Below, piece by piece: positions 51,551 through 64,000 of a stretch of 64,000 nucleotides of DNA (positions are counted from its first letter, which is position 1; each line of letters opens with the position of its first letter). Source of the DNA: Methylobacter sp. GTDB taxonomy: Bacteria; Pseudomonadota; Gammaproteobacteria; Methylococcales; Methylomonadaceae. The notes under the pieces are model-generated. The model saw only the letters and a list, made by a program, of their open reading frames with translations, did no database searches and was not told the origin of the DNA. A program made the position numbers and the translations under genes. The stretch is from NCBI GenBank assembly GCA_030679035.1, contig JAUXTH010000144.1, forward strand, positions 31,052-95,051. Reading direction: 5' to 3'.

Positions 51551-51864
51551 TGGGGCACCTTATGGCTTCATAACGGCATCACTTGCGGGCATGATAATAA
51601 ATATCTTTAAAAATTTCTATAAAATTTATAATTATTTAATATTATAATTAATTCAATTAAATACAATTAAAGTTAAAAATAATTATATATTTGTTGTTGA
51701 AATTTCATGTGGTTTCGGTATAGTTTAATCCCAAAGGAGGGCAGGATAGGTGAAGTTGGCCAACCGTTTCACGGTTAGCCAACTTCACGGTTCTTATTCG
51801 CGCTTGCAGCGCTCAACGAACATCCTGCCCTGCGGGACAACGTCAGAGAATGGTCAGGTGGAAA
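51551..51864. other. oriT: oriT region between traK and traJ
   Basis: Minus strand reads CTTCACCTATCCTG^CCC, the IncP (RP4) nic context; predicted nic is between 51742 and 51741 on the minus strand. Next to it, 18-bp arms at 51750-51767 and 51771-51788 (GTGAAGTTGGCCAACCGT and its complement, one mismatch) flank a 3-nt loop, as expected for the relaxosome-accessory (TraJ) site. A second CATCCTG^C stands on the plus strand at 51821-51828. The traK-proximal half is very AT-rich, fitting TraK binding and strand opening. Confidence 0.88.
51750..51788. repeat. oriT inverted repeat
   Basis: 18-bp arms with one mismatch (TTGGCC versus TTAGCC complement) and loop TTC, immediately beside the nic sequence. 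It is probably bound by the TraJ-like protein and used for strand recircularisation. Confidence 0.9.
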
Positions 51865-52236
51865 ATGATTAATGACTCAAAACCCAACCGCAAAAACACC
51901 CCACCTATTAAGGTGTGTTGTACGCCGCTTGAACGGCAAACGATTTTCGAAAAAGCCGAGCAATGCGGTTTGTCGGCCTCAAATTATTTGCGGGCTATTG
52001 GCTTAGGGATGGGCGTTACCAGTGTTATCGATCATCGTAAGGTTGATGAACTGGTCAGAGTCAATGGCGATTTAGGCCGATTAGGTGGGTTATTAAAGCT
52101 TTGGTTAAGCAATGATGAAAAACTCCGTCTGGATAACAAGCAGCTCCTAAGAAATCAAATCCTGGACACGCTTGCTGAAATCAATAACAACCAGACCGCC
52201 ATAAAAACTATCATTCAGCGGGTGGTCAGATCATGA
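51865..52236 (+). CDS. traJ: TraJ/MobC-like relaxosome accessory protein
   Basis: 123 aa from ATG 51865 (AGGTGG just upstream; the track start is 15 nt earlier). KVCCTPLERQTIFEKAEQCGLSASNYLRAIGLGMGV is the ribbon-helix-helix DNA-binding region, and VNGDLGRLGGLLKLWLSNDEKL is the MobC/TraJ signature. It recognises the oriT inverted repeat and recruits the relaxase. Stop overlaps the traI start by 4 nt. Confidence 0.88.
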   Translation: MINDSKPNRKNTPPIKVCCTPLERQTIFEKAEQCGLSASNYLRAIGLGMGVTSVIDHRKVDELVRVNGDLGRLGGLLKLWLSNDEKLRLDNKQLLRNQILDTLAEINNNQTAIKTIIQRVVRS

Positions 52237-53903
52237 TCGCCAAAGCCATTGCCATGAAGGTCGCCGAAAAGAGCCATTTTTCTAAATTGGTGGCTTATAT
52301 GACCGATGCGCAGGACACGCCTTTTAGGCTTGGCCAAGTTTCTGTCACTAATTGCTACAGTGACGGCCACAACGATGCCGTCTACGAAGTCCTCAACACC
52401 CAGATGCAAAACCGCCGAGCGATCTCCGATAAAACCTACCACCTGATCGTTTCGTTCAGGGCCGGAGAGGACGTTAGTCCTGAAACCTTACAAGCGATTG
52501 AAGCCGAACTGTGTACCGGTTTAGGCTTTAAAGAACACCAACGCATCAGTGCCGTGCATCAAGATACCGAAAACCTGCATATCCATATTGCCATTAACAA
52601 AGTCCATCCCGTTAAACATACCATTTATAATCCTTATCGGGACTATAAGATATTGGCAAAACTGTGTGCGAAATTGGAACAGCAATACGGTCTGGAAGTC
52701 GACAACCACAGTAGCCAAAGAAATCATACTGCAGGCCGGGCAAGGGACATGGAACGGCATTCCGGGGTAGAAAGCCTGATCAGTTGGATACAACAAAAAG
52801 CTTTAGACAGCATCAAACAAGCTAGTACCTGGGCAGAGTTACATGCGGCATTGTATGAAAATAGCCTCAGCATAAAGCCTAGAGGTAATGGCCTTGCTCT
52901 CAGTACCCTGGATGAATCAATAGTTGTAAAAGCCAGTTCCGTTGCCCGCGAGTTATCCAAAGGAAAGCTTGAACAGCGCTTAGGCACATTCCAGCCAGCC
53001 AATGAACAAAGTCTTTCAACCTTAACGGTCAAACAACGTTACGACAGGGCTGTGCTCACCATCAATCCAGTATCACCGGAACAATCAAAACAATTGGAAC
53101 AACTAAAAAAACCACTAAAAATAACCAGCACTGACTTGTATAACCTCTATCAATCTGAACGGTTAGACAGCACGGTTATACGAGTCGAAGCCTTGCAAAG
53201 GGCAAGAACACAGCATCAAGCAGACATTCAACAAGCCAAAGACAAAGCTGCCGACAAACGGCGTTGGCTCAAGGCACTAATCCAGCCCGGCATTAACAAA
53301 AAACTCCTGCTCGCACTGACCGGGAAATCACTACAGGCTGACATAAAACGCATTAATGCCGATTACCGACAACAAAGACAAAGTCTGTATGCCCAACACC
53401 GGCGCTTTACCTGGCTGGATTGGTTGCAACAACAAGCGACGCAGGGCAACTTGAACGCATTGAAGATCTTGCGGCAACGGCAGAGCAAAGCCGAGGTGAA
53501 AGGCAATTACCTCGATGGGATTAAAACCCCGTCCGAGCATTTCGCACCGCAGCAGAGCACAGCCAAGGTCACCAAGAAAGGCACGGTATTTTATTTGCAC
53601 AATAAAGCCGTCATCAAGGATGACGGCAACCGTTTCCATGTTGCCGCCGATGCCGACCAAGCCGTATTAACGTCCGCCCTAATCTATGCAAAGAACCGGC
53701 ACGGCTACCAGCTTTCCATTCAAGGCAATGAGCTGTTTCAGGAAAATGTGGTGCGAGCCTCCGTCAAAGCCGGATTGAATATCAGCTTCGATCAAGAGCA
53801 ACTGGAACAGCGGCGGGTACAACTCAGTGCTGAAATGCTGTTGTTTGGGGACGGCGCAGTCAAGAATTTAACCGCCCAACAAAGTGTGGGCAGGAGGCGA
53901 TAA
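52233..53903 (+). CDS. traI: TraI relaxase, MOBP family
   Basis: 556 aa. Catalytic residues fall at the positions known for RP4 TraI: Tyr22 in FSKLVAYMTDAQ, Ser74 in TYHLIVSF, and His116/His118 in TENLHIHIAINKVHP. After the relaxase domain (1-260) comes a charged helical region and a C-terminal domain (STAKVTKKGTVFYLHNKAVIKDDGNRFHVAADADQAVLTSALIYAKNRHG) of the LPD7 kind. It cleaves nic, stays covalently bound to the 5' end and pilots the strand into the recipient. Shorter than RP4 TraI (732 aa). Confidence 0.95.
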   Translation: MIAKAIAMKVAEKSHFSKLVAYMTDAQDTPFRLGQVSVTNCYSDGHNDAVYEVLNTQMQNRRAISDKTYHLIVSFRAGEDVSPETLQAIEAELCTGLGFKEHQRISAVHQDTENLHIHIAINKVHPVKHTIYNPYRDYKILAKLCAKLEQQYGLEVDNHSSQRNHTAGRARDMERHSGVESLISWIQQKALDSIKQASTWAELHAALYENSLSIKPRGNGLALSTLDESIVVKASSVARELSKGKLEQRLGTFQPANEQSLSTLTVKQRYDRAVLTINPVSPEQSKQLEQLKKPLKITSTDLYNLYQSERLDSTVIRVEALQRARTQHQADIQQAKDKAADKRRWLKALIQPGINKKLLLALTGKSLQADIKRINADYRQQRQSLYAQHRRFTWLDWLQQQATQGNLNALKILRQRQSKAEVKGNYLDGIKTPSEHFAPQQSTAKVTKKGTVFYLHNKAVIKDDGNRFHVAADADQAVLTSALIYAKNRHGYQLSIQGNELFQENVVRASVKAGLNISFDQEQLEQRRVQLSAEMLLFGDGAVKNLTAQQSVGRRR

Positions 53904-54226
53904 TGAAAATCCTAACCGTCGTGCGAGGCCTATGTCTCGCCCCCCTTATTCTGGTTTATGGTGCATGGATGCTATTCAAGTTTACGTTGAGTTTAAGCGT
54001 TTTGTTATTGGGTGCTTGGTTGATTCATAAAATATTCGGGATTGCAGGCGATGTCATACTGGCGTTGCCGATCATTTATGTCCTGTCGTATTTGGTGCCG
54101 AATCCGCGAATGGGAAATATTGCCAACAAGTTAACTTTTAAAGGTATGCCAGATAGTAAATTGTCAGTAAATCCAAAAATGAAGATCGTGGATATAAAAT
54201 CCTATCGGCGCAGAGCAAAACAATGA
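53903..54226 (+). CDS. Small membrane protein between relaxase and coupling protein
   Basis: 107 aa: hydrophobic N-terminal two-thirds with two to three membrane helices (LAPLILVYGAWMLFKFTLSLSVLLLGAWLI; VILALPIIYVLSYLV) and a basic tail (KSYRRRAKQ). Not recognised. It starts on the last nucleotide of traI (TAATG) and overlaps traG by 4 nt, so it belongs to the tra operon and may assist the coupling protein at the membrane. Confidence 0.65.
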   Translation: MKILTVVRGLCLAPLILVYGAWMLFKFTLSLSVLLLGAWLIHKIFGIAGDVILALPIIYVLSYLVPNPRMGNIANKLTFKGMPDSKLSVNPKMKIVDIKSYRRRAKQ

Positions 54227-56103
54227 AGGACAAATTCAACAACTCGGTTGGCCCTCTGGCGCATAAATCGAAAGGCACTTCACATAAGGTTCTACGGGCG
54301 CTGATTGCCATCATGATTTTAATCATCGGATTGCAAACCGCAACCCAGACCTTTGCCTTTGAGTTCCAGTATCACCGTTTGTTGGGATTTAATGTATTCC
54401 ACCTATACCCACCCTGGGCGATTGTGGGCTGGTCGGTGAAATGGGCAGAAACCTACCCATCTTATCTGCTGCGCGCCGGTAATTACGGGATCATCGTGGC
54501 CGGGGTAGGATTGTTGTTGCAGACGATTGTTATCTTGGTTGTTGATAATTCGGCTAAGGCCAGTCTCTACCTGCACGGATCGGCACGTTGGACGAACCTG
54601 AAAGACCTGCGCTTAGCCGGATTATTGCCGCGTCCCAGAAGTTTCAGTGAATGGCTTGCGGGGGTAAAACGGCCAAAAAGCACCGGCGTGTTTGTCGGGG
54701 CTTGGCTGGACAAGCAGGGACACACCCATTATCTCAGACACAGCGGCGGGGAACATGTGTTATGTATCGCGCCTACCGGTTCAGGTAAAGGTGTCGGCTT
54801 GATTATTCCCACTTTAACTACTTGGGCTCAAAGCGCAGTCATTACCGATTTAAAAGGCGAGTTGTGGGGCGCTACCGCAGGCTGGCGACAACAACATGCC
54901 AACAACAAAGTGTTGCGCTTTGAACCGACAGCCACTGACTCGATACACTGGAACCCGTTGGATGAAATACGCGTGGGGACGCAATACGAAGTGGGTGATG
55001 TGCAGAACCTGGTCAACTTGATCGTAGATCCGGATGGCAAGAGTTTGGAAACCCATTGGCAAAAAACCGCCCATGCCTTGCTGGTCGGGGTCATGTTACA
55101 TGCCTTGTATCTTGCCAAGAAAACCGGAGTCACCGTCACTTTACAACAGGTTGATCGGATGCTATCCGACCCGCACAAATCATTATCCGAGTTATGGCAT
55201 GACATGCGATTCAACCTACACCGTAACGGCATGCCCCATGAATTGGTGTCGTCAGCGGCTATGGACATGATCACTCGGCCACTGGAAGAAGCGGGATCGG
55301 TGCTGTCAACCGCCAAATCGTATTTGTCACTCTATAGAGATCCCGTGGTGGCTGAGAATGTTGGCAGTTCGGATTTTAGCATCGGAGATTTGATGAATCA
55401 CGAGTCCCCCGTCAGTCTATATATTGTCACTCAGCCGAATGACAAAACCCGGCTACGCCCCTTGGTGCGCATCCTGATTAATATGATCATCAGATTGTCG
55501 GCGCAGGGTCTGACTATTAGCGACGGGATGCCCAAAGCGTCCTATAAACATCGTTTGCTGTTAATGCTCGATGAATTTCCGGCATTGGGCAAACTGGACA
55601 TCCTGCAAGAATCCTTGGCCTTTTTACGAGGCTACGGCATCAAGTGTTACTTGATCTGCCAGGATATTACCCAGTTGAAAAGCCGTGAAACCGGTTATGG
55701 CCCGGATGAATCGATCAGTTCCAACTGTGCCGTGGTGAACGCCTTTGCGCCCAACCGGATAGAAACCGCCGAACACTTATCCAAGCTGACCGGCCAAACG
55801 ACCATCGTCAAAGAGCAGATTACCACCAGCGGCCATCGTGCCAGTATGCTGCTGGGGAGTGTCTCACGGACTACCCATGAGGTGCAGCGACCGTTATTAA
55901 CCCCGGATGAATGCCTGAGAATGCAAGGGCCCATCAAAGACGATCACGGCATGATCGAACAGCCGGGCGATATGCTGGTGTTTGTCGCGGGCTACCCGGC
56001 AATCTATGGTGTCCAACCCTTATATTTTAAAGACCCGGTGTTAATGGCGCGGTCGCGCATACCGCCCCCGTATAAAAGCGATACTATAAAAAATCAGTTT
56101 TAA
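54223..56103 (+). CDS. traG: TraG/VirD4 type IV coupling protein
   Basis: 626 aa. Two N-terminal membrane helices (LRALIAIMILIIGLQTATQT; YGIIVAGVGLLLQTIVILVV), then HGSARWTNLKDLRLAGLL, Walker A CIAPTGSGKGVGLIIPTLTTW (about 187), VITDLKGELWGATAGWR and Walker B LLMLDEFPALGKLDILQESLAFLRGYGIKCYLICQDITQLK, with PNRIETAEHLSKLTGQTT. It links the TraI-DNA complex to the Trb channel. Length is near RP4 TraG (635 aa). Confidence 0.96.
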   Translation: MKDKFNNSVGPLAHKSKGTSHKVLRALIAIMILIIGLQTATQTFAFEFQYHRLLGFNVFHLYPPWAIVGWSVKWAETYPSYLLRAGNYGIIVAGVGLLLQTIVILVVDNSAKASLYLHGSARWTNLKDLRLAGLLPRPRSFSEWLAGVKRPKSTGVFVGAWLDKQGHTHYLRHSGGEHVLCIAPTGSGKGVGLIIPTLTTWAQSAVITDLKGELWGATAGWRQQHANNKVLRFEPTATDSIHWNPLDEIRVGTQYEVGDVQNLVNLIVDPDGKSLETHWQKTAHALLVGVMLHALYLAKKTGVTVTLQQVDRMLSDPHKSLSELWHDMRFNLHRNGMPHELVSSAAMDMITRPLEEAGSVLSTAKSYLSLYRDPVVAENVGSSDFSIGDLMNHESPVSLYIVTQPNDKTRLRPLVRILINMIIRLSAQGLTISDGMPKASYKHRLLLMLDEFPALGKLDILQESLAFLRGYGIKCYLICQDITQLKSRETGYGPDESISSNCAVVNAFAPNRIETAEHLSKLTGQTTIVKEQITTSGHRASMLLGSVSRTTHEVQRPLLTPDECLRMQGPIKDDHGMIEQPGDMLVFVAGYPAIYGVQPLYFKDPVLMARSRIPPPYKSDTIKNQF

Positions 56104-56228
56104 ATACAGTATTGCAAGCCTAACCGATGCAAAGCTTTTATCCAAAACCGTTGATGATAGAGGGTCGGAAATGGATACAGAACATGAATATGAATATGAA
56201 CCTTTCTTACAACGAGGAGAGAAAACCC

Positions 56229-56807
56229 ATGCACGCCCTTATAACAGAGCAAAATAAATCATCGCCAACCTGTTTGCGTTACCACCGGATCATTAATCGG
56301 TTAACAATAATGGTATTGCTAGGTTTCTCATGTGTATTTTTAAGCGATTGGTTGGGCTTACGCTTCAATACAACGCGCAGTGTCGATCCAGGTTTTTATT
56401 GGGTTATCAATAAACAACCGGAGAAAGGGGATTTTGTTTCATTTTGCCCAGCCGAGACCTCAATTTCACAAATGGCTTACCTGCGCGGTTACATCGGATT
56501 TGGCAACTGTCCGGGTCATTATCAGCGTCTACTTAAGATTGTTTATGGCATGGCGGGAGACGAAATTGAGTTTCAAGAGCATGGCATTTCTGTCAACGGA
56601 TCAGTATTGCCTCAGAGCGCTTTCCTGCCTCAAGACGGATTAGGCAGATCATTAATGCCGTTTAGCTCGAAGCCCATCGTATTAAACGCCGATGAACTCT
56701 GGGTGATGACAAATCACAATCCGCTATCTTTTGATAGCCGTTACTTTGGCCCGATTCGACTCGCTCAGGTCAGTAATGTAGTTAGACCTATATGGACATG
56801 GCAATAA
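56229..56807 (+). CDS. traF: TraF-like S26 peptidase, pilin maturation
   Basis: About 192 aa from ATG 56229 (GAGGAG upstream); the track's longer start (56127) adds a poor Met-Asn-rich leader. One membrane helix (LTIMVLLGFSCVFLSDWLGL) precedes the catalytic Ser region FNTTRSVDPGFYWVI, the Lys region YQRLLKIVYGMAGDEIEF and the final VMTNHNPLSFDSRYFGPI box. In RP4 TraF trims and cyclises the TrbC pilin and is essential for the pilus. It would act on the TrbC encoded 36 kb away in the same element. Confidence 0.88.
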   Translation: MHALITEQNKSSPTCLRYHRIINRLTIMVLLGFSCVFLSDWLGLRFNTTRSVDPGFYWVINKQPEKGDFVSFCPAETSISQMAYLRGYIGFGNCPGHYQRLLKIVYGMAGDEIEFQEHGISVNGSVLPQSAFLPQDGLGRSLMPFSSKPIVLNADELWVMTNHNPLSFDSRYFGPIRLAQVSNVVRPIWTWQ

Positions 56808-56889
56808 GCCAGCTGGGTGGTTAAGACCAAGCAAAGACATAAGTTCAATTTAAACTCAATAACGCAGTATTTTCCGAGAGGTGACAACA

Positions 56890-57117
56890 ATGAAACAACT
56901 GGATGACAGCTTGAAACAAAAAATAGTTCCTGATGCTTCGAATGATACGGCTAATGCCGATGCAGCATTAACCGAAAAGTTAAGCGATGCGATGATACCG
57001 GGGTTTGCAGCCGAGTTTGACCCGGAAGAGGCCGAACGCGCCGGTGCCTTTGATGAAGATGCGTTAAGCGAAGCCGATGCGCTAGACAGTTGCATTGATG
57101 CTGCTGACGAAGGATAG
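56890..57117 (+). CDS. Small acidic hypothetical protein
   Basis: 75 aa from ATG 56890 (GAGGTG upstream; the track starts at a GTG 9 nt earlier). [75 protein letters not shown] is very acidic, without recognised domain. It lies 6 bp before the giant fusion gene and is probably co-translated with it; it could be a chaperone-like or inhibitory partner. Confidence 0.6.
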
Positions 57118-57123
57118 GTTTTT

Positions 57124-60100
57124 ATGGCCAAAATCCCTAATCCGGCACAGTTAGATTTTTTCGATGATTGGCTTGTGGTTGAGGAAAATGCATCGCCTTC
57201 AAATAACTCGATTTCAACCATAGAAAAAGACGCTGAGGCAGCGATAGCGAATTTTGAAAAGTTCCGCTATCAACTCGCACTACGTTTGGCAGAGAAGTTA
57301 GACAAAGATGGCGAAATCACCATGAAGTTCTTAACTGATGAAGCCAATCGCGCTTTTGGCGGTACTCAGGCGGAAGGTGTTTACTCAACAAAAGATGCTT
57401 ACGACGCAATGGAAGCTGCCTTCAATATCCATCTTATCAATACTGAGACAACAGACTTTACGACTCAAAATGCGGCATGGGCCAGTGACAAGGCTTTAGA
57501 GCTAACAAAGCGCATCCAGAAATTACCGACGCAAACAAAGCGTGATCAAGAAATGGACGAGTTCCAGCAGTTCAGCACGCCGCCCGCCTTATCGTTTGTA
57601 GCTAATTGGGTGGCGAACGTTAAAGCCACGGATGTCATGATAGAACCGTCTGCCGGTACCGGAGATTTGGCGGTATGGTCGAAAATTGCGGGTGCCGAGG
57701 TTGTCTTGAATGAGTTATCTCCACGGCGACAGGTATTGCTAGCCGATCTGTTTCCACAAGCACGCTTATTCAAGGAAAACGCCGAACAACTGGATAACGT
57801 ACTACCTACCGATGTTGTGCCAACAATTGCGGTAATGAATCCGCCATTTTCTTCGACAGCCGGGAGAGTGCAAGGGCAACGTGACACCTCAAACGGTGCC
57901 AGACATATAGAACAGGCCTTAAAACGTTTGCAAGACGGTGGCCGGTTGGTTGCAATTGTCGGTCAGGGTATGGCGACAGATCGGCCCGCATTCAAGGCTT
58001 GGTGGAGAACTATCGAGAAGAAATACAATGTACGGGCAAACATAGGCATCTCCGGTAAAGACTATGCGAAGTATGGAACCACGTTTGATAATCAAATTTT
58101 GGTTATCGACAAAACCGGCGTTACGACTCAGCCGGTTTTGACGGGACATGTCGAGTCGGTTACCGATTTACCTAAATTATTGGAGGGCATAAAAAATGAT
58201 CGTCAACAAAGACAATCAATCATCAATAAACCAACAGTCGATGAAGATACTCAAAAGGTATCGGATACCGTTCAACCCGACAACAGAATTGGCGGCGCTG
58301 GTGCTGATACAGGCAGCATTGGAACGGAACCTGTTGGAAACGGCGGAGATACAGGAACCCGAATTATTGATAGCCAAACTGAGGGCGAATCCCCGGTTAG
58401 CAATGTCGTTAATGACGGGAGCGGAGCCGGGAGTGGAGTTGGCACTGGATCTACCGGACTCGTTGGCGGAAGCGGCGGCGATGATATTGGAGGAAATAGT
58501 GGCATCCTTGAAGGCCACAATGCCAACACCATTTCAATAGAGGCCAAGATAGGCGAAGTTACCGAGTTTTCTGACGCTGTTTTTTCCAATTACACCCCGC
58601 AACGCTTAAGCATACCCGGCGCACAACAGCATCCAGGAAGACTGGTGCAGTCTGCGGCAATGTCGGCGGTAGAACCGCCTCCCCCGACGTATGCGCCGGT
58701 GTTACCGGAAAATCTGATACAAGAGGGCTTGCTATCGATTGCGCAGCTTGAATGCTTGGTTTATGCAGGACAAGCACATTGCGATGTATTGCCGAATGGA
58801 TCGCGGAAAGGGTTTTTTATTGGTGATGGAACCGGCGTAGGAAAAGGTCGGGAAATATCCGGCATCATCCTGGATAACCAGATGCAGGGGCGTAAAAAGG
58901 CCGTTTGGGTTTCATTTAATGAAGGCTTGATTGAAGATGCTAAACGGGATTTTTCAGGTATTGGCGGCAATCCGGAGAAGATTTTCTTTCAAGGCAAAAC
59001 AAAAGCGGGCAACGCAATCTCGCAAATAGACGGCATCCTGTTTACGACCTATTCGACCTTACGCGGCGGCGAGAAGAAGCAAGCCACTGACCTGGGGCAG
59101 AAGACAGGTAAAACCCGCGCTCAACAGATTGTAGATTGGTTGGGCGATGGTTTCGACGGTGTGATTGCGTTTGATGAAGCGCATAGCATGGGCAATGCAA
59201 TTGGGATAAAGGGAAAACGCGGCGTTAGAAAACCATCACAACAAGCGTTAGCAGGGATCAACCTGCAACGTGAGTTACCGAATGCGCGTGTAGTGTATGT
59301 ATCTGCAACCGGCGCTACCGAGATTAGCAATTTAAGTTATGCAGATCGTTTGGGCTTATGGGGAGAAGGCACACCCTTTGCCGATGTGAATACCTTTATT
59401 ACCGGGGTATCAAAAGGTGGTATTGCTTCAATGGAGTTGATTAGCCGTGATATGAAAGCTATGGGTATGTATATTGCCCGATCTCTATCTTATGATGGTG
59501 TGAGTTACGAACGGTTGGAGCATACGCTTTCTGATTTGCAGGAAGATATTTACAATGAATTGGCAGGTGCTTGGCAAATCGTTTTAAACAATGTTGATGC
59601 GGCACTTGAGATTACTCAGGCGGGTAGCAACGGCAACGCGAAAAGTGCTGCAATGGCGCAATTTTGGGGCGCACATCAACGCTTTTTTAACCAAGTCATC
59701 ACGTCCATGCAAACGCCTCGGGTCATTGATGATATAAGGCGACAACTGGATGCCGGGAATGTTGCCGTCATCCAACTGGTCAATACCAATGAGGCCGCTC
59801 AGGAGCGCATCATTGCAGAAGCGACTGCTCAAGATGCGGCGCTTGAAGACCTTGATTTTACACCTCGTCAGATGCTGATGGATTACATTAGGAACGGGTT
59901 TCCGGTGGCGGCTTATCAAGAGTCCAAGGACGATAACGGCAACACTGTTTATGTGCCGGTTATGGATTTGGACTGGAATCAGGTATTTGACCGCGAAGCA
60001 ATTGCCTTACGTGATTCATTGTTGGAAACGCTGAACCAAATTCGTGTACCTGAAAATCCGTTAGATTCCATCATCAATGCTTTTGGTTCTGACCTGGTGG

Positions 60101-63100
60101 CTGAAGTCACTGGTCGTAGTCGTCGCTTTGTTCAGACCCGTGATGAAGATGGCCACTTGAAGATTATTGAAGAAAAACGCGGTAAACATTCATCAAGTGC
60201 TGACGCTCAGGCATTTCAAAACGACAAAAAGAAAATACTCGTATTTTCGGGTGCAGGCGGAACTGGTTACAGCTTCCATGCTGACAACACAGCCGAAAAT
60301 AAACACAAGCGCATTCATTACATTTTGCAACCGGGTTGGCGGGCAGATTCCGCCGTGCAAGGCTTCGGTCGTACCCATAGAACTAACCAAGCGCAAGAAC
60401 CGCATTATGTTCTGCCAACGACCAATCTGAAAGCGCAAAAGCGTTTTGTATCATCCATTGCGCGACGACTGGATCAGTTAGGTGCATTGACGCGTGGTCA
60501 GCGAGAAGCAACCGGCCAGGGCATGTTTACGGCAGCGGATAATCTTGAGAGCGATTATGCAACAACGGCCTTAAATATTTTCTTTGGCGACCTTTATCGT
60601 GGCACGACCGGTTTGTCCTTCCAGGATGTTACCAAGCAAATGGGCTTGAATTTATTTGATGCAAATGGCGCTTTTTCTGAGACCAAAATACCGGCTATCC
60701 CCCAGTTTTTGAATCGTTTGCTGTCGCTAAAAACCGATCAGCAAAACGCTGTTTTTGCTGAGTTCGAAAAAAGACTTGTTGAGACCGTTGAGTACGCAAA
60801 GCAACATGGCTTATATGACAGTGGTTTACAGACGTTGAAAGCGGTGAGCATCAAGAAAACCCGTGACGATGTTGCTTATGAAGATAAAACCTCCGGGGCG
60901 AAAACTCGCTATGTAGAGCTGGGTGTCACCAATGAACTCAGTTATTACGACTGGACGGATGCCCTGCAAATAGCCGGTAAACGCCTACTTATTGCAAATG
61001 AGTTAAGCGGGTGGTTTGTGTCCGAGTTCGGCAAGAATAAAGGCGAAGTTTTCTTCCTTAAAGATATTGGTGAAAGGCTGAATTCGGAGGGTAAGCCCGT
61101 TCGTCGGGGAGTCATTTATACCATCCAAAAGGACAACCATAGATATATCGATAATGCAGATGTTGTCAGTCGTGGCTGGGATTATAAAACCGTATCGGTT
61201 AATGGTGTGAACAGTTACCAGAAAGTCATCCTGTCCAGGGCGATTACTGAGGCCGAGGCCGAAATGCTTTGGACTGTACAAGTAGAGCATGCACCGAAGA
61301 CGGAAACTAAGACCACGAGAATGATCGTCGGAGTGATCCTGCCTATCTGGGATCGTGTCGAGGGCTCTGAAAGGATTTATCGCTTGCAGACCGATGAAGG
61401 CGAGATGCTGCTGGGTCGCCTGGTGAGTTCAAAGTCTGCTAAACAGACGCTTAAGAATCTGGGGCTGGAATCCAGTTTGTCCAAAATGACCGCCGTTGAG
61501 TTATTTATAGCCATGAAAAATGGCAGTAAGGCCATTCTTTCCAATGGTTGGGAAATTGCAATAGCGAAGGTCAACCATGAAGATCGTATTGAGATTAAGG
61601 GACGCGGTTATCTGAGCGAAGCCGAAAAACGTGTTCTTAAAGATCAAGGTGTCTTTATTGAGCGTATCAATTGGCAAGAAAGAGTTTTTATCCCCACCGG
61701 CGGAACAGGTTTAGAGATTTTCGAGCGCATCACCCAATCGAAACCCGTCGTCGATTTAATCGAGAAGAACCGGAATCAGGAAGCCAACGAAGTTGAGCAA
61801 GAATATGGAATTCCTCAAATACCAACAACCGAGACTGCCATTTTTGAAACCAATGGCAAGCCAGCCACCGAAATTGTAACTACTGCCTTATCGCACAGTG
61901 ATAGCCAAAAGGAGGTTATTCCCATGAATCAAACGAAGAAACCATTCCATGAAACAGTCGCTGAAAATTTAATCAAGCAACTAGAGCAAGGCACTGCGCC
62001 TTGGCAACGCCCCTGGGAACCCGGTGGTCCCGGTTCGTTTGTCCCCATTAATCCTTTAACCGGCAAGCGCTATAAAGGCATCAATGCCTTACAGCTCATG
62101 TCACAGGAGCGTGGCGATCAACGGTGGCTGACCTATAAGCAATCGGCGGGGCTTGGCGGACAAGTTCGCCGAGGCGAAAAAGGGACAAGCATTCAATACT
62201 GGAAATTTACCGATGAACAGTTGAAGAAAGACGACCAGGGCAAGGCTGTATTGGACGAGGAAGGGAAGCCGGTTAAGGTAACGGTCAAGCTGGAACGACC
62301 GCGGGTGTTTTACGCTACGGTGTTTAACGCCGAACAGATCGAGGGCTTGCCACCGCTGCAGAAAAAACAGCAAACGTGGGATGCTATAGAACGTGCCGAA
62401 AACATGTTAACCGCATCAGCTGCGGTGATAAATTATACCGCTGGTGATAAGGCATTTTACCGACCCTCATCCGACAGTATTCATTTGCCGGAAAGGGGCC
62501 AGTTCCCGAGCGCGGATAAATTTTATGCTACGGCACTGCATGAACTCGGGCATTGGACTGGTCACCCGTCACGATTGTATCGTGATTTGGCTCACCCGTT
62601 TGGCAGTGAGGGGTATGCGAGGGAAGAATTACGTGCCGAAATATCAAGTATGCTGTTAGGTGATGCGTTAGGCATCGGCCATGATCCTGGGCAACATGCC
62701 GCGTATGTGGGGTCCTGGATCAAAGCGTTACAAGAAGATCCCCTTGAAATTTTTAGAGCGGCGGCTGACGCTGAACGGATACAAGGCTTCTTGTTAGCTC
62801 TTGAGCAAAAACAAGAACAAGACCTGCTGGATAATCCAAACACTTTGGCGAGTGACAATGCCGTGGTCAGGGAATTTAGAGAAACGGAAGATTTAGCGGC
62901 TAACCAATCACAGACTTCTAAAATCGAGCAGCAGCAAACCCAAACGGACTATGAACAAGCGCCGGATAAAAGTGTGGCTTTAGGCCGGGAGGATAAAACC
63001 TATATTCAGGTTCCATACCCGGAAAAGAACCAGGCTAAGGCACTGGGTGCAAAGTGGGATCGAGGGCTACAGTCTTGGTATGTTCCGGCTAATGTGGATT

Positions 63101-63897
63101 TAGACTTGTTTGTTAAATGGCCGCAAACGACGGATATGTCTAAGACGGAGCGCCACTATCTCGTCGTACCGTATACGGAACGGAATAGTGCCAAGAATGC
63201 CGGGGCCCTGTGGGATAAAAAAGCGAAATCTTGGTATGCGGAAAAAAATGCCGACATGGATATTTTGAAGCAGTGGTTGCCGGAAAATGTCAAAGACCAG
63301 CAAGCGCCCTCTATGGCACCACGAGAGGAATTTTCCGAAGCACTGGCTTCGTTGGGTTGTCTCATCACGGGCGACCATCCGATTATGGATGGTCAAACCC
63401 ACAGAATTGCGACCGTAGGAGACAAGTCAGGTGAACGGGCGGGGTTCTATGTTGCCTATCTTGACGAACATCCAGCCGGTTACATCCAAAACAATAGAAC
63501 CGGCGATACCATGAAATGGAAATCAAAAGGCTATTCGCTGAGTGAAGCAGAAAAAGCGCAGTTAAAAGCCAATAACGCCACTAAGTTACAAGAACGCGAC
63601 GCTGCGCATAAAGCCCAACAACTTAAAGTTGCAGAATCTATTCGTGAATTGTTGAAAGTTGCGCCGCCTGCGCCTGCTGATCATCCCTATTTGCAATTGA
63701 AGCAAGCCAGACCGGGCAGTTTGCGTGTGGTGCCGGAAGATATAAGTGCGTTACCAACAGATGCCAATATTATTATTGGTAAGAACTGGAAAGAGTCTAT
63801 GAAATTGCGGAAGGCCAATCCGGATAAACTGGTTTTTACAGCCGGGGATTTGTTATTGCCCCCCCTGCGTCAGAATAGTTGTCGCCTCAAATTTTAA
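57124..63897 (+). CDS. Giant methylase / Strawberry-notch helicase / ArdC fusion, 3' end truncated by an IS
   Basis: 2257 aa. A Rossmann methylase-like domain (about 130-350) has VMIEPSAGTGDLAVWS and VMNPPFSS. A Gly/Ser/Thr linker (about 360-465) follows. The helicase (about 500-1160) has GDGTGVGKGREISGIILDN, DGVIAFDEAHSMGNA, VYVSATGATEISNLSYADRLGLWG and QGFGRTHRTNQAQEP, the Strawberry-notch layout. The ArdC part (1601 on) is FHETVAENLIKQLEQGTAPWQRPW with metal site LHELGHWTGHPSRL. Two DUF5710 repeats (VPYPEKNQAKALGAKWD; VPYTERNSAKNAGALWD) follow. Such proteins on conjugative elements probably shield incoming DNA from host restriction. The last residues (PPLRQNSCRLKF) come from the inserted element. 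Confidence 0.88.
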   Translation: MAKIPNPAQLDFFDDWLVVEENASPSNNSISTIEKDAEAAIANFEKFRYQLALRLAEKLDKDGEITMKFLTDEANRAFGGTQAEGVYSTKDAYDAMEAAFNIHLINTETTDFTTQNAAWASDKALELTKRIQKLPTQTKRDQEMDEFQQFSTPPALSFVANWVANVKATDVMIEPSAGTGDLAVWSKIAGAEVVLNELSPRRQVLLADLFPQARLFKENAEQLDNVLPTDVVPTIAVMNPPFSSTAGRVQGQRDTSNGARHIEQALKRLQDGGRLVAIVGQGMATDRPAFKAWWRTIEKKYNVRANIGISGKDYAKYGTTFDNQILVIDKTGVTTQPVLTGHVESVTDLPKLLEGIKNDRQQRQSIINKPTVDEDTQKVSDTVQPDNRIGGAGADTGSIGTEPVGNGGDTGTRIIDSQTEGESPVSNVVNDGSGAGSGVGTGSTGLVGGSGGDDIGGNSGILEGHNANTISIEAKIGEVTEFSDAVFSNYTPQRLSIPGAQQHPGRLVQSAAMSAVEPPPPTYAPVLPENLIQEGLLSIAQLECLVYAGQAHCDVLPNGSRKGFFIGDGTGVGKGREISGIILDNQMQGRKKAVWVSFNEGLIEDAKRDFSGIGGNPEKIFFQGKTKAGNAISQIDGILFTTYSTLRGGEKKQATDLGQKTGKTRAQQIVDWLGDGFDGVIAFDEAHSMGNAIGIKGKRGVRKPSQQALAGINLQRELPNARVVYVSATGATEISNLSYADRLGLWGEGTPFADVNTFITGVSKGGIASMELISRDMKAMGMYIARSLSYDGVSYERLEHTLSDLQEDIYNELAGAWQIVLNNVDAALEITQAGSNGNAKSAAMAQFWGAHQRFFNQVITSMQTPRVIDDIRRQLDAGNVAVIQLVNTNEAAQERIIAEATAQDAALEDLDFTPRQMLMDYIRNGFPVAAYQESKDDNGNTVYVPVMDLDWNQVFDREAIALRDSLLETLNQIRVPENPLDSIINAFGSDLVAEVTGRSRRFVQTRDEDGHLKIIEEKRGKHSSSADAQAFQNDKKKILVFSGAGGTGYSFHADNTAENKHKRIHYILQPGWRADSAVQGFGRTHRTNQAQEPHYVLPTTNLKAQKRFVSSIARRLDQLGALTRGQREATGQGMFTAADNLESDYATTALNIFFGDLYRGTTGLSFQDVTKQMGLNLFDANGAFSETKIPAIPQFLNRLLSLKTDQQNAVFAEFEKRLVETVEYAKQHGLYDSGLQTLKAVSIKKTRDDVAYEDKTSGAKTRYVELGVTNELSYYDWTDALQIAGKRLLIANELSGWFVSEFGKNKGEVFFLKDIGERLNSEGKPVRRGVIYTIQKDNHRYIDNADVVSRGWDYKTVSVNGVNSYQKVILSRAITEAEAEMLWTVQVEHAPKTETKTTRMIVGVILPIWDRVEGSERIYRLQTDEGEMLLGRLVSSKSAKQTLKNLGLESSLSKMTAVELFIAMKNGSKAILSNGWEIAIAKVNHEDRIEIKGRGYLSEAEKRVLKDQGVFIERINWQERVFIPTGGTGLEIFERITQSKPVVDLIEKNRNQEANEVEQEYGIPQIPTTETAIFETNGKPATEIVTTALSHSDSQKEVIPMNQTKKPFHETVAENLIKQLEQGTAPWQRPWEPGGPGSFVPINPLTGKRYKGINALQLMSQERGDQRWLTYKQSAGLGGQVRRGEKGTSIQYWKFTDEQLKKDDQGKAVLDEEGKPVKVTVKLERPRVFYATVFNAEQIEGLPPLQKKQQTWDAIERAENMLTASAAVINYTAGDKAFYRPSSDSIHLPERGQFPSADKFYATALHELGHWTGHPSRLYRDLAHPFGSEGYAREELRAEISSMLLGDALGIGHDPGQHAAYVGSWIKALQEDPLEIFRAAADAERIQGFLLALEQKQEQDLLDNPNTLASDNAVVREFRETEDLAANQSQTSKIEQQQTQTDYEQAPDKSVALGREDKTYIQVPYPEKNQAKALGAKWDRGLQSWYVPANVDLDLFVKWPQTTDMSKTERHYLVVPYTERNSAKNAGALWDKKAKSWYAEKNADMDILKQWLPENVKDQQAPSMAPREEFSEALASLGCLITGDHPIMDGQTHRIATVGDKSGERAGFYVAYLDEHPAGYIQNNRTGDTMKWKSKGYSLSEAEKAQLKANNATKLQERDAAHKAQQLKVAESIRELLKVAPPAPADHPYLQLKQARPGSLRVVPEDISALPTDANIIIGKNWKESMKLRKANPDKLVFTAGDLLLPPLRQNSCRLKF
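58196..58540 (+). CDS. Possible overlapping gene inside the linker of the giant ORF
   Basis: A 114-codon +1 frame with GGAGG at 58182-58186, 9 nt before its ATG. Its product (ILKRYRIPFNPTTELAALVLIQAALERNLLETAEIQEPELLIAKLRANPRLAMSLMTG...) reads like a compact helical protein, while the main frame here is Gly/Ser linker. Antisense frames are also open here, so composition alone could explain it. Confidence 0.3.
   Translation: MIVNKDNQSSINQQSMKILKRYRIPFNPTTELAALVLIQAALERNLLETAEIQEPELLIAKLRANPRLAMSLMTGAEPGVELALDLPDSLAEAAAMILEEIVASLKATMPTPFQ
61924..63897 (+). CDS. Internal in-frame start for a stand-alone ArdC/DUF5710 product
   Basis: An AAGGAGG motif stands 7-8 nt before ATG 61924, which is codon 1601 of the giant ORF and precisely precedes the ArdC N-terminus (MNQTKKPFHETVAENL). 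Translation from here would give a 657-codon ArdC-like protein (ssDNA-binding domain plus zinc metalloprotease, then DUF5710 repeats). ArdC proteins normally begin just like this. The 3' end is truncated as for the long form. Confidence 0.55.
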   Translation: MNQTKKPFHETVAENLIKQLEQGTAPWQRPWEPGGPGSFVPINPLTGKRYKGINALQLMSQERGDQRWLTYKQSAGLGGQVRRGEKGTSIQYWKFTDEQLKKDDQGKAVLDEEGKPVKVTVKLERPRVFYATVFNAEQIEGLPPLQKKQQTWDAIERAENMLTASAAVINYTAGDKAFYRPSSDSIHLPERGQFPSADKFYATALHELGHWTGHPSRLYRDLAHPFGSEGYAREELRAEISSMLLGDALGIGHDPGQHAAYVGSWIKALQEDPLEIFRAAADAERIQGFLLALEQKQEQDLLDNPNTLASDNAVVREFRETEDLAANQSQTSKIEQQQTQTDYEQAPDKSVALGREDKTYIQVPYPEKNQAKALGAKWDRGLQSWYVPANVDLDLFVKWPQTTDMSKTERHYLVVPYTERNSAKNAGALWDKKAKSWYAEKNADMDILKQWLPENVKDQQAPSMAPREEFSEALASLGCLITGDHPIMDGQTHRIATVGDKSGERAGFYVAYLDEHPAGYIQNNRTGDTMKWKSKGYSLSEAEKAQLKANNATKLQERDAAHKAQQLKVAESIRELLKVAPPAPADHPYLQLKQARPGSLRVVPEDISALPTDANIIIGKNWKESMKLRKANPDKLVFTAGDLLLPPLRQNSCRLKF

Positions 63898-64000
63898 GAA
63901 AAAATAAAATTTGAGATTAGAAATGAAAAAATATAAAAGGTATTCCGCAGGCTTCAAAGAGCAGGCATTGGTAAAAGTTTACAGTCGTGGCAATGACCAA
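63860..64000 (+). mobile_element. Insertion sequence, left end only
   Basis: The giant ORF breaks after ...AGDLLL near 63858. Following sequence (CCCCCCTGCGTCAGAATAG...) is unlike coding sequence and leads into a transposase-like ORF. The exact junction is uncertain by several bases and the right end is outside the window. Confidence 0.7.
63924..64000 (+). CDS. Transposase OrfA-like protein, N-terminal fragment
   Basis: MKKYKRYSAGFKEQALVKVYSRGND begins the HTH domain seen at the start of IS3/IS911-type OrfA proteins (YS.EFK.QAL..V..RG). The frame is open to the window edge. Family is tentative from 25 residues. Confidence 0.6.

Follow-up and report, generated by a model that had tools for sequence, protein, structure and literature searches.

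The window analyzed here is a 64,000-nucleotide stretch of a Methylobacter sp. genome that forms the end of one contig (C70) of a 4.8 Mb draft assembly, and every feature described below lies on its forward strand. It carries, in this order, genes for a NikA/TraJ-like relaxosome protein (51850..52236), a traI-like relaxase (52233..53903), a traG-like coupling protein containing a T4SS-DNA_transf domain (54223..56103), a traF-like signal peptidase (Peptidase_S26; 56127..56807) and a traD-like protein (56890..57117). Directly 3' of traD is a single open reading frame (ORF) of 2257 residues (57124..63897) that combines a methylase-like region, a strawberry-notch (SBNO) helicase, an ArdC protein, two DUF5710 repeats and the beginning of a primase. 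Like a polyvalent protein, it unites several conflict-related domains within a single chain encoded by a conjugative element.

These domains were delimited with Pfam and by comparison with relatives; an NCBIfam scan gave no useful match. The methylase-like region (residues 71-400; 57334..58323), which includes an NPPF motif, has no significant Pfam match but is conserved at 66-83% in most intact relatives. The SBNO helicase (58627..60831) is assigned from AAA_34 (residues 502-812, E 2e-119) and Helicase_C_4 (residues 978-1236, E 4e-87), and its conserved C-terminal part stops at approximately residue 1560. A variable linker follows (61804..61923), whose length of about 40 residues had been given correctly in the first-pass annotation of this DNA; in relatives it reaches up to ~370 residues. 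The ArdC part consists of an ArdcN domain (residues 1608-1721; 61945..62286; E 8e-31) and an MPTase-PolyVal zincin metallopeptidase domain with an HELGH motif (residues 1756-1881; 62389..62766; E 1e-45). Beyond the DUF5710 repeats (62986..63282), comparison with relatives reveals the N-terminal part of a TraC-type primase module (63310..63858). Relatives carry the full primase module; Pfam detects Toprim there only weakly and below threshold, in L034.

The primase module is interrupted by an IS3-type insertion sequence, the left end of which occupies the remainder of the window (63861..64000; orfA from 63923) and contributes the last ~12 codons of the ORF. The probable target is TTGCC (63856-63860), the genome contains three or more copies of the element, and the contig ends within it. 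We located the remaining primase in a second contig (C43), directly after an IS copy and with TTGCC on both sides. The right flank of this copy continues the primase and its left flank is unrelated, a mismatch that points to a switch made during assembly or else to a rearrangement mediated by the IS. The gene is therefore interrupted in its primase part, and 2257 residues is not its native length; intact relatives have about 2400-3350 codons. The earlier description of a 2200-residue fusion took the IS-interrupted length for that of the protein. Products of the window copy may no longer work.

Within this ORF, at the junction between linker and ArdC, lies a sequence with the layout of a bacterial translation start. 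Window positions 61907-61926 read AAAAGGAGGTTATTCCCATG, in which a Shine-Dalgarno (SD) sequence, AAGGAGGT (61909-61916), is complementary to the 16S tail over 8 bases and is separated by 7 bases from an in-frame ATG (61924..61926). This ATG is codon 1601 of the ORF and precedes the ArdcN domain by 7 residues; we propose it as the start of a TraC1-like short product, which in the interrupted window copy would comprise 657 codons. We measured SD strength as the duplex energy, in kcal/mol, with the 16S tail ACCUCCUUA. By this measure the site scores -12.3 and ranks first of the 35 in-frame ATGs (median for ATG, -1.5); it also tops all 115 in-frame ATG, GTG and TTG codons, and an equally good SD is found at only 0.09% of the in-frame positions of the ORF. 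Our analysis thus bears out the initial observation of AAGGAGG and an in-frame ATG at the ArdC boundary, and the window copy contains the strong SD, proper spacing and in-frame start expected of a two-start gene.

Gene order indicates which gene this start would belong to. Annotated plasmid-borne relatives in Methylomonas sp. LL1 and M. alcaliphilum 20Z have the order traI-traG-traF-topo III-traD-fusion, and the IncP plasmid PB5, with which our IncP comparison was made, carries traI-traG-traF-traE(topo)-traD-traC1/traC2-traB-traA. The window shares this order with its annotated relatives and with IncP, so that the fusion, directly after traD, stands where traC would be. The ArdC part of the fusion and PB5 TraC1 have 70% identity over ~340 residues (E 1e-167), and PB5 traC1 starts behind gacgggaggtaattggct-ATG, a layout that matches the internal site of the window. 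The upstream partner is a predicted adenine-methylase-like/SBNO helicase module placed between traD and traC1. The topoisomerase III gene that separates traF from traD in LL1, 20Z and IncP is missing from the window (56807-56890); it is likewise absent from L034-L037, L046, L082 and L084, and it is present in several other relatives.

The likeness to the IncP genes extends to their use of a single frame. In RP4, for which the traC1/traC2 pair is also annotated (PMC7314908), and in PB5, TraC1 and TraC2 share with the gene described here the place after traD, an N-terminal ArdC, a C-terminal primase (probable for the gene here, given the module that begins in the window), and one frame with two starts (the internal one proposed here) and a common stop. 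The position of the internal start differs. In IncP it is that of TraC2 (codon 316 in PB5, behind cagggggcaact-ATG), which drops ArdC and leaves the primase, whereas here it corresponds to the start of traC1 itself and removes a methylase-SBNO prefix that IncP is without.

In every fusion read as far as the ArdC junction (21/21), the linker contains an SD-like site followed by an in-frame start. The first 18 of these have an ATG at the ArdC boundary that is preceded by an SD of -5.8 to -12.3 (weakest in L046, -5.8, and L043, -6.5) and ranks between first and fourth among the 24-49 in-frame ATGs of its own gene. The other three, which are more divergent, vary in their details: L128 has GGAGG and an ATG 14 residues further upstream (-9.5), L131 has AAGGAGGAGG and an ATG about 90 residues upstream of the site in other fusions (-12.1), and L132 has a GTG behind AAGGGGGAAACT (-10.5), where the encoded residues are wholly different and the SD AAGGGGG is kept. 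A start codon at proper spacing is therefore common to all, as ATG in 20 fusions and as GTG in L132. L131, from a metagenome-assembled genome labelled Deltaproteobacteria, also has about 590 extra codons before its methylase part, and its AAGGAGG+ATG, perfect in sequence, lies about 90 residues ahead of ArdC.

This conservation stands out from its surroundings. When 13 representatives are aligned at the start codon, the frequency of the most common base is 0.69-1.0 at positions -14 to -9, compared with a mean of 0.44 at -90 to -25, and at fourfold-degenerate sites of the ArdC part relatives are only 24-50% identical to the window. By these measures synonymous sites are near saturation and the linker is otherwise diverged. 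The residues preceding the start vary (QKEVIP, QEGVS, QGVIQ, QGDIS, SGGIS, QDGTP, VKGET), and the purine run persists.

Could the run be a by-product of the peptide it encodes, with a conserved QEV-x-x-M that happens to spell an SD? QEV codons do form one fairly often (P_syn 0.05-0.4), which is also why a synonymous test of each gene, conditioned on its encoded residues, is mostly non-significant alone (P 0.02-0.55). As a control, we compared all 24 methionine columns that 12 or more of 15 fusions have in common. Among them, the ArdC start has the strongest SD on average (-9.4) and is preceded by the least conserved residues (0.48), and it alone is strongly shifted toward an SD at synonymous positions (z -1.6; the others range from -0.76 to +0.65). 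The runner-up owes its SD (-7.4) to a conserved peptide (0.91), with no synonymous shift. Sequences related by descent are not independent, so these figures are not true probabilities. Local mRNA structure at the start is mildly weaker than background in most fusions, and L042 and L086 show none of this trend. The SD and start codon are, as judged from these comparisons, conserved beyond protein constraint. Chance or protein constraint has a probability close to negligible: the purine run outlasts the peptide, and the same DNA recurs outside the fusion frame, 5' of free genes, as described below.

A purine-rich run at this place might instead serve to pause the ribosome between the two halves of a giant protein, aiding co-translational folding without initiating translation. 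Its position exactly at a domain boundary fits such a role, and internal SD sequences have been suggested, if controversially, to slow ribosomes (PMC5100845). Against it, a start codon at proper spacing is also kept, and the same sequence serves as the ribosome-binding site (RBS) of free genes; we regard this explanation as highly unlikely. According to the same study, highly expressed genes are depleted of SD sequences within their coding regions (PMC5100845), which means that keeping a perfect SD inside a gene is not the default.

The free genes provide a natural test of the site. The locus behind traD exists in two states. In the fused state, methylase, SBNO, ArdC and primase form one open frame (L036-L044, L046, L047, L049, L082-L086, L128, L131 and L132), an arrangement common to plasmids of many genera; in the free state, ArdC-primase stands alone (L034, L035, L051, L087, L048, L088, L089 and L090). 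In Mesorhizobium, ArdC, ParB-like, SBNO and Toprim proteins are encoded by separate genes. Four of the free genes (L034, L035, L051 and L087) nest among fused genes in the ArdC tree and are separated from the traD stop by 46-49 bp, which contain the same SD block as the fusions; compare CGTAATAACCTTCAGGAGGTTATGACC-ATG in the free L034 with CGTGATAACCCACAGGAGGTTATGCCA-ATG in the fused L036. In these four no fusion frame runs through the block and no other RBS is plausible, so the block very probably works as one. They are the split homologues with the same RBS whose existence the first-pass annotation had proposed as a check.

The trees also speak to the history of the prefix. Outlying ArdC genes and IncP lack it, and the fused state is therefore probably derived. 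In the ArdC tree, the free L034 adjoins the gene of the window (84/95), both fall inside a group with the fused L036, L037 and L044 (100/99), and the free L035, L051 and L087 lie near the fused L082 and L046. A single fused clade is rejected (AU p 0.0095), which leaves one gain followed by two losses, or several gains. Since the main groups of the SBNO tree agree with those of the ArdC tree, we tentatively read the fusion as old, with the prefix lost at least twice later; repeated gain is the alternative. The earlier suggestion that a stop between two ancestral genes had been lost does not hold in the sense of a recent accident: the fusion occurs in many genera, and the internal site is kept throughout.

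Several gains would also accommodate a passive relic, in which the ancestral RBS of traC1 sits idle in the fusion and survives only because time has been short or prefixes have been added recently and repeatedly, each in front of an intact RBS. The rejection of a single fused clade is compatible with this. The agreement of the two trees, however, indicates that the halves have travelled together within groups; synonymous sites are near saturation, yet the SD and start are retained in 21/21 fusions; and in L132 both the residues and the start codon were exchanged while the SD stayed. An idle relic is in our judgment unlikely.

Other copies of the locus depart from these two states. On the M. 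alcaliphilum 20Z plasmid (L038/L108), an in-frame TAG near codon 136 detaches the methylase end, and the gene is annotated as two coding sequences; a near relative, L039, is open at the same place. On Thioflavicoccus mobilis pTHIMO01 (L106), ArdC copies flank methylase-SBNO on both sides, the second broken by an IS66 element, and this arrangement may record the placing of the prefix before ArdC. Viral contigs from IMG/VR (L136, L138-L141, L143-L145) also contain methylase-SBNO regions, within open frames 3200 to 4400 codons long. These have no recognizable ArdC in the stretch read and have no bearing on the start.

The reading we favor is that the internal start is used in translation and has been maintained by selection, in a traC1 gene that gained a prefix and would now yield two in-frame products; we put the probability of this reading at about 0.8. 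An RP4-type traC1 gene (ArdC plus primase) behind traD would have gained an in-frame N-terminal prefix of adenine-methylase-like and SBNO parts while retaining its own RBS and start codon. Translation of the mRNA would then begin at two points of one frame: at 57124, yielding a long polyvalent protein (methylase-SBNO-ArdC-primase), and at 61924, yielding a TraC1-like ArdC-primase, with entry at the second start by free ribosomes or by reinitiation. There is precedent for the latter, as SogS is described as arising by reinitiation in the sog frame (PMC6112013). That ribosomes initiate at this site in fused genes, and that both products are made, we infer from conservation. The suggestion that the locus might make both a fusion and a free ArdC fares well as to the number of products, two being likely, and less well as to the identity of the shorter one, which would be ArdC-DUF5710-primase, the equivalent of TraC1.

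Proteolytic cleavage, perhaps by the zincin domain, could also produce a short form, leaving the RBS-like sequence incidental. Autoproteolysis by the MPTase domains of polyvalent proteins has been proposed, although the same paper describes TraC1 and ArdC as transferred at full length (PMC5512222). Cleavage could occur in addition to internal initiation, but it leaves the nucleotide conservation unexplained, and we consider it extremely unlikely as the source of the pattern.

The presumed roles of the two products in transfer are carried over by homology. TraC1 and Sog primases pass into recipients (PMC7213743; PMC5512222), and ArdC of R388 counters recipient restriction (PMC7213743). The strand being transferred is probably what both products work on: the ArdC part would shield incoming DNA from restriction, the primase would start the second strand, and the long form would add modification or remodelling.

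Some copies may encode a third product. In Methylomonas-type copies, a second SD and ATG (e.g., GAAGGAGGCGTTATG) occurs about 200 residues before DUF5710, with energies of -10.8 to -11.8 (codons 2225 in L040, 2224 in L083, 2597 in L042, 2486 in L043, 2227 in L047 and 2595 in L085). It lies between ArdC and primase, broadly at the position of the IncP TraC2 start, and is suggestive of a TraC2-like start; the close copies that carry it share an EGGV peptide. We found no such start in the window copy (best -3.3), where the region itself is absent. We speculate, with rather less than even confidence, that on methanotroph conjugative plasmids one frame encodes a nested transferred set (methylase-SBNO-ArdC-primase, TraC1-like ArdC-primase and, in some copies, TraC2-like primase alone), that internal ribosome sites set the mix, and that loss of the prefix leaves the rest working, as the internal start takes over.

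Several known systems resemble this arrangement. SogL/SogS of IncI1 are likewise long and short in-frame products of a transferred primase gene, but with another domain order: Toprim is N-terminal, ArdC is lacking, and the shared part is C-terminal. ArdC of pSa/R388 shares the ArdcN and zincin domains and antirestriction and differs in standing alone, without primase or helicase (PMC7213743). Phage endolysins also yield two products from one frame through an internal start, shown experimentally in that different protein class (PMC9430671). In the polyvalent proteins of plasmids and phages, which are multidomain like the one here, methylase-helicase domains occur together with ArdC, MPTase and Toprim primase (Iyer et al. 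2017, PMC5512222); the part of that account cited here names a Methylomonas SBNO member (WP_020485828.1) among them and does not discuss internal starts. Giant polyvalent proteins with such domains and two-start primase genes are thus both already known. A literature text search, mostly of papers available without subscription, returned none that pairs 'polyvalent protein' with 'internal start', which is no proof of novelty, and no description of a polyvalent fusion that keeps traC1's own start and falls back on it when the prefix is lost.

The reading proposed here recasts a 'fused' giant protein as a two-product gene, the short form of which annotations of such giant genes overlook. As carriers include the culturable methanotrophs M. 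alcaliphilum 20Z and M. buryatense 5G, it is directly testable. It suggests how polyvalent plasmid proteins can be extended at the N terminus and still keep the old product, and that an upstream module can be gained or dropped while the gene's own ribosome site stays inside.
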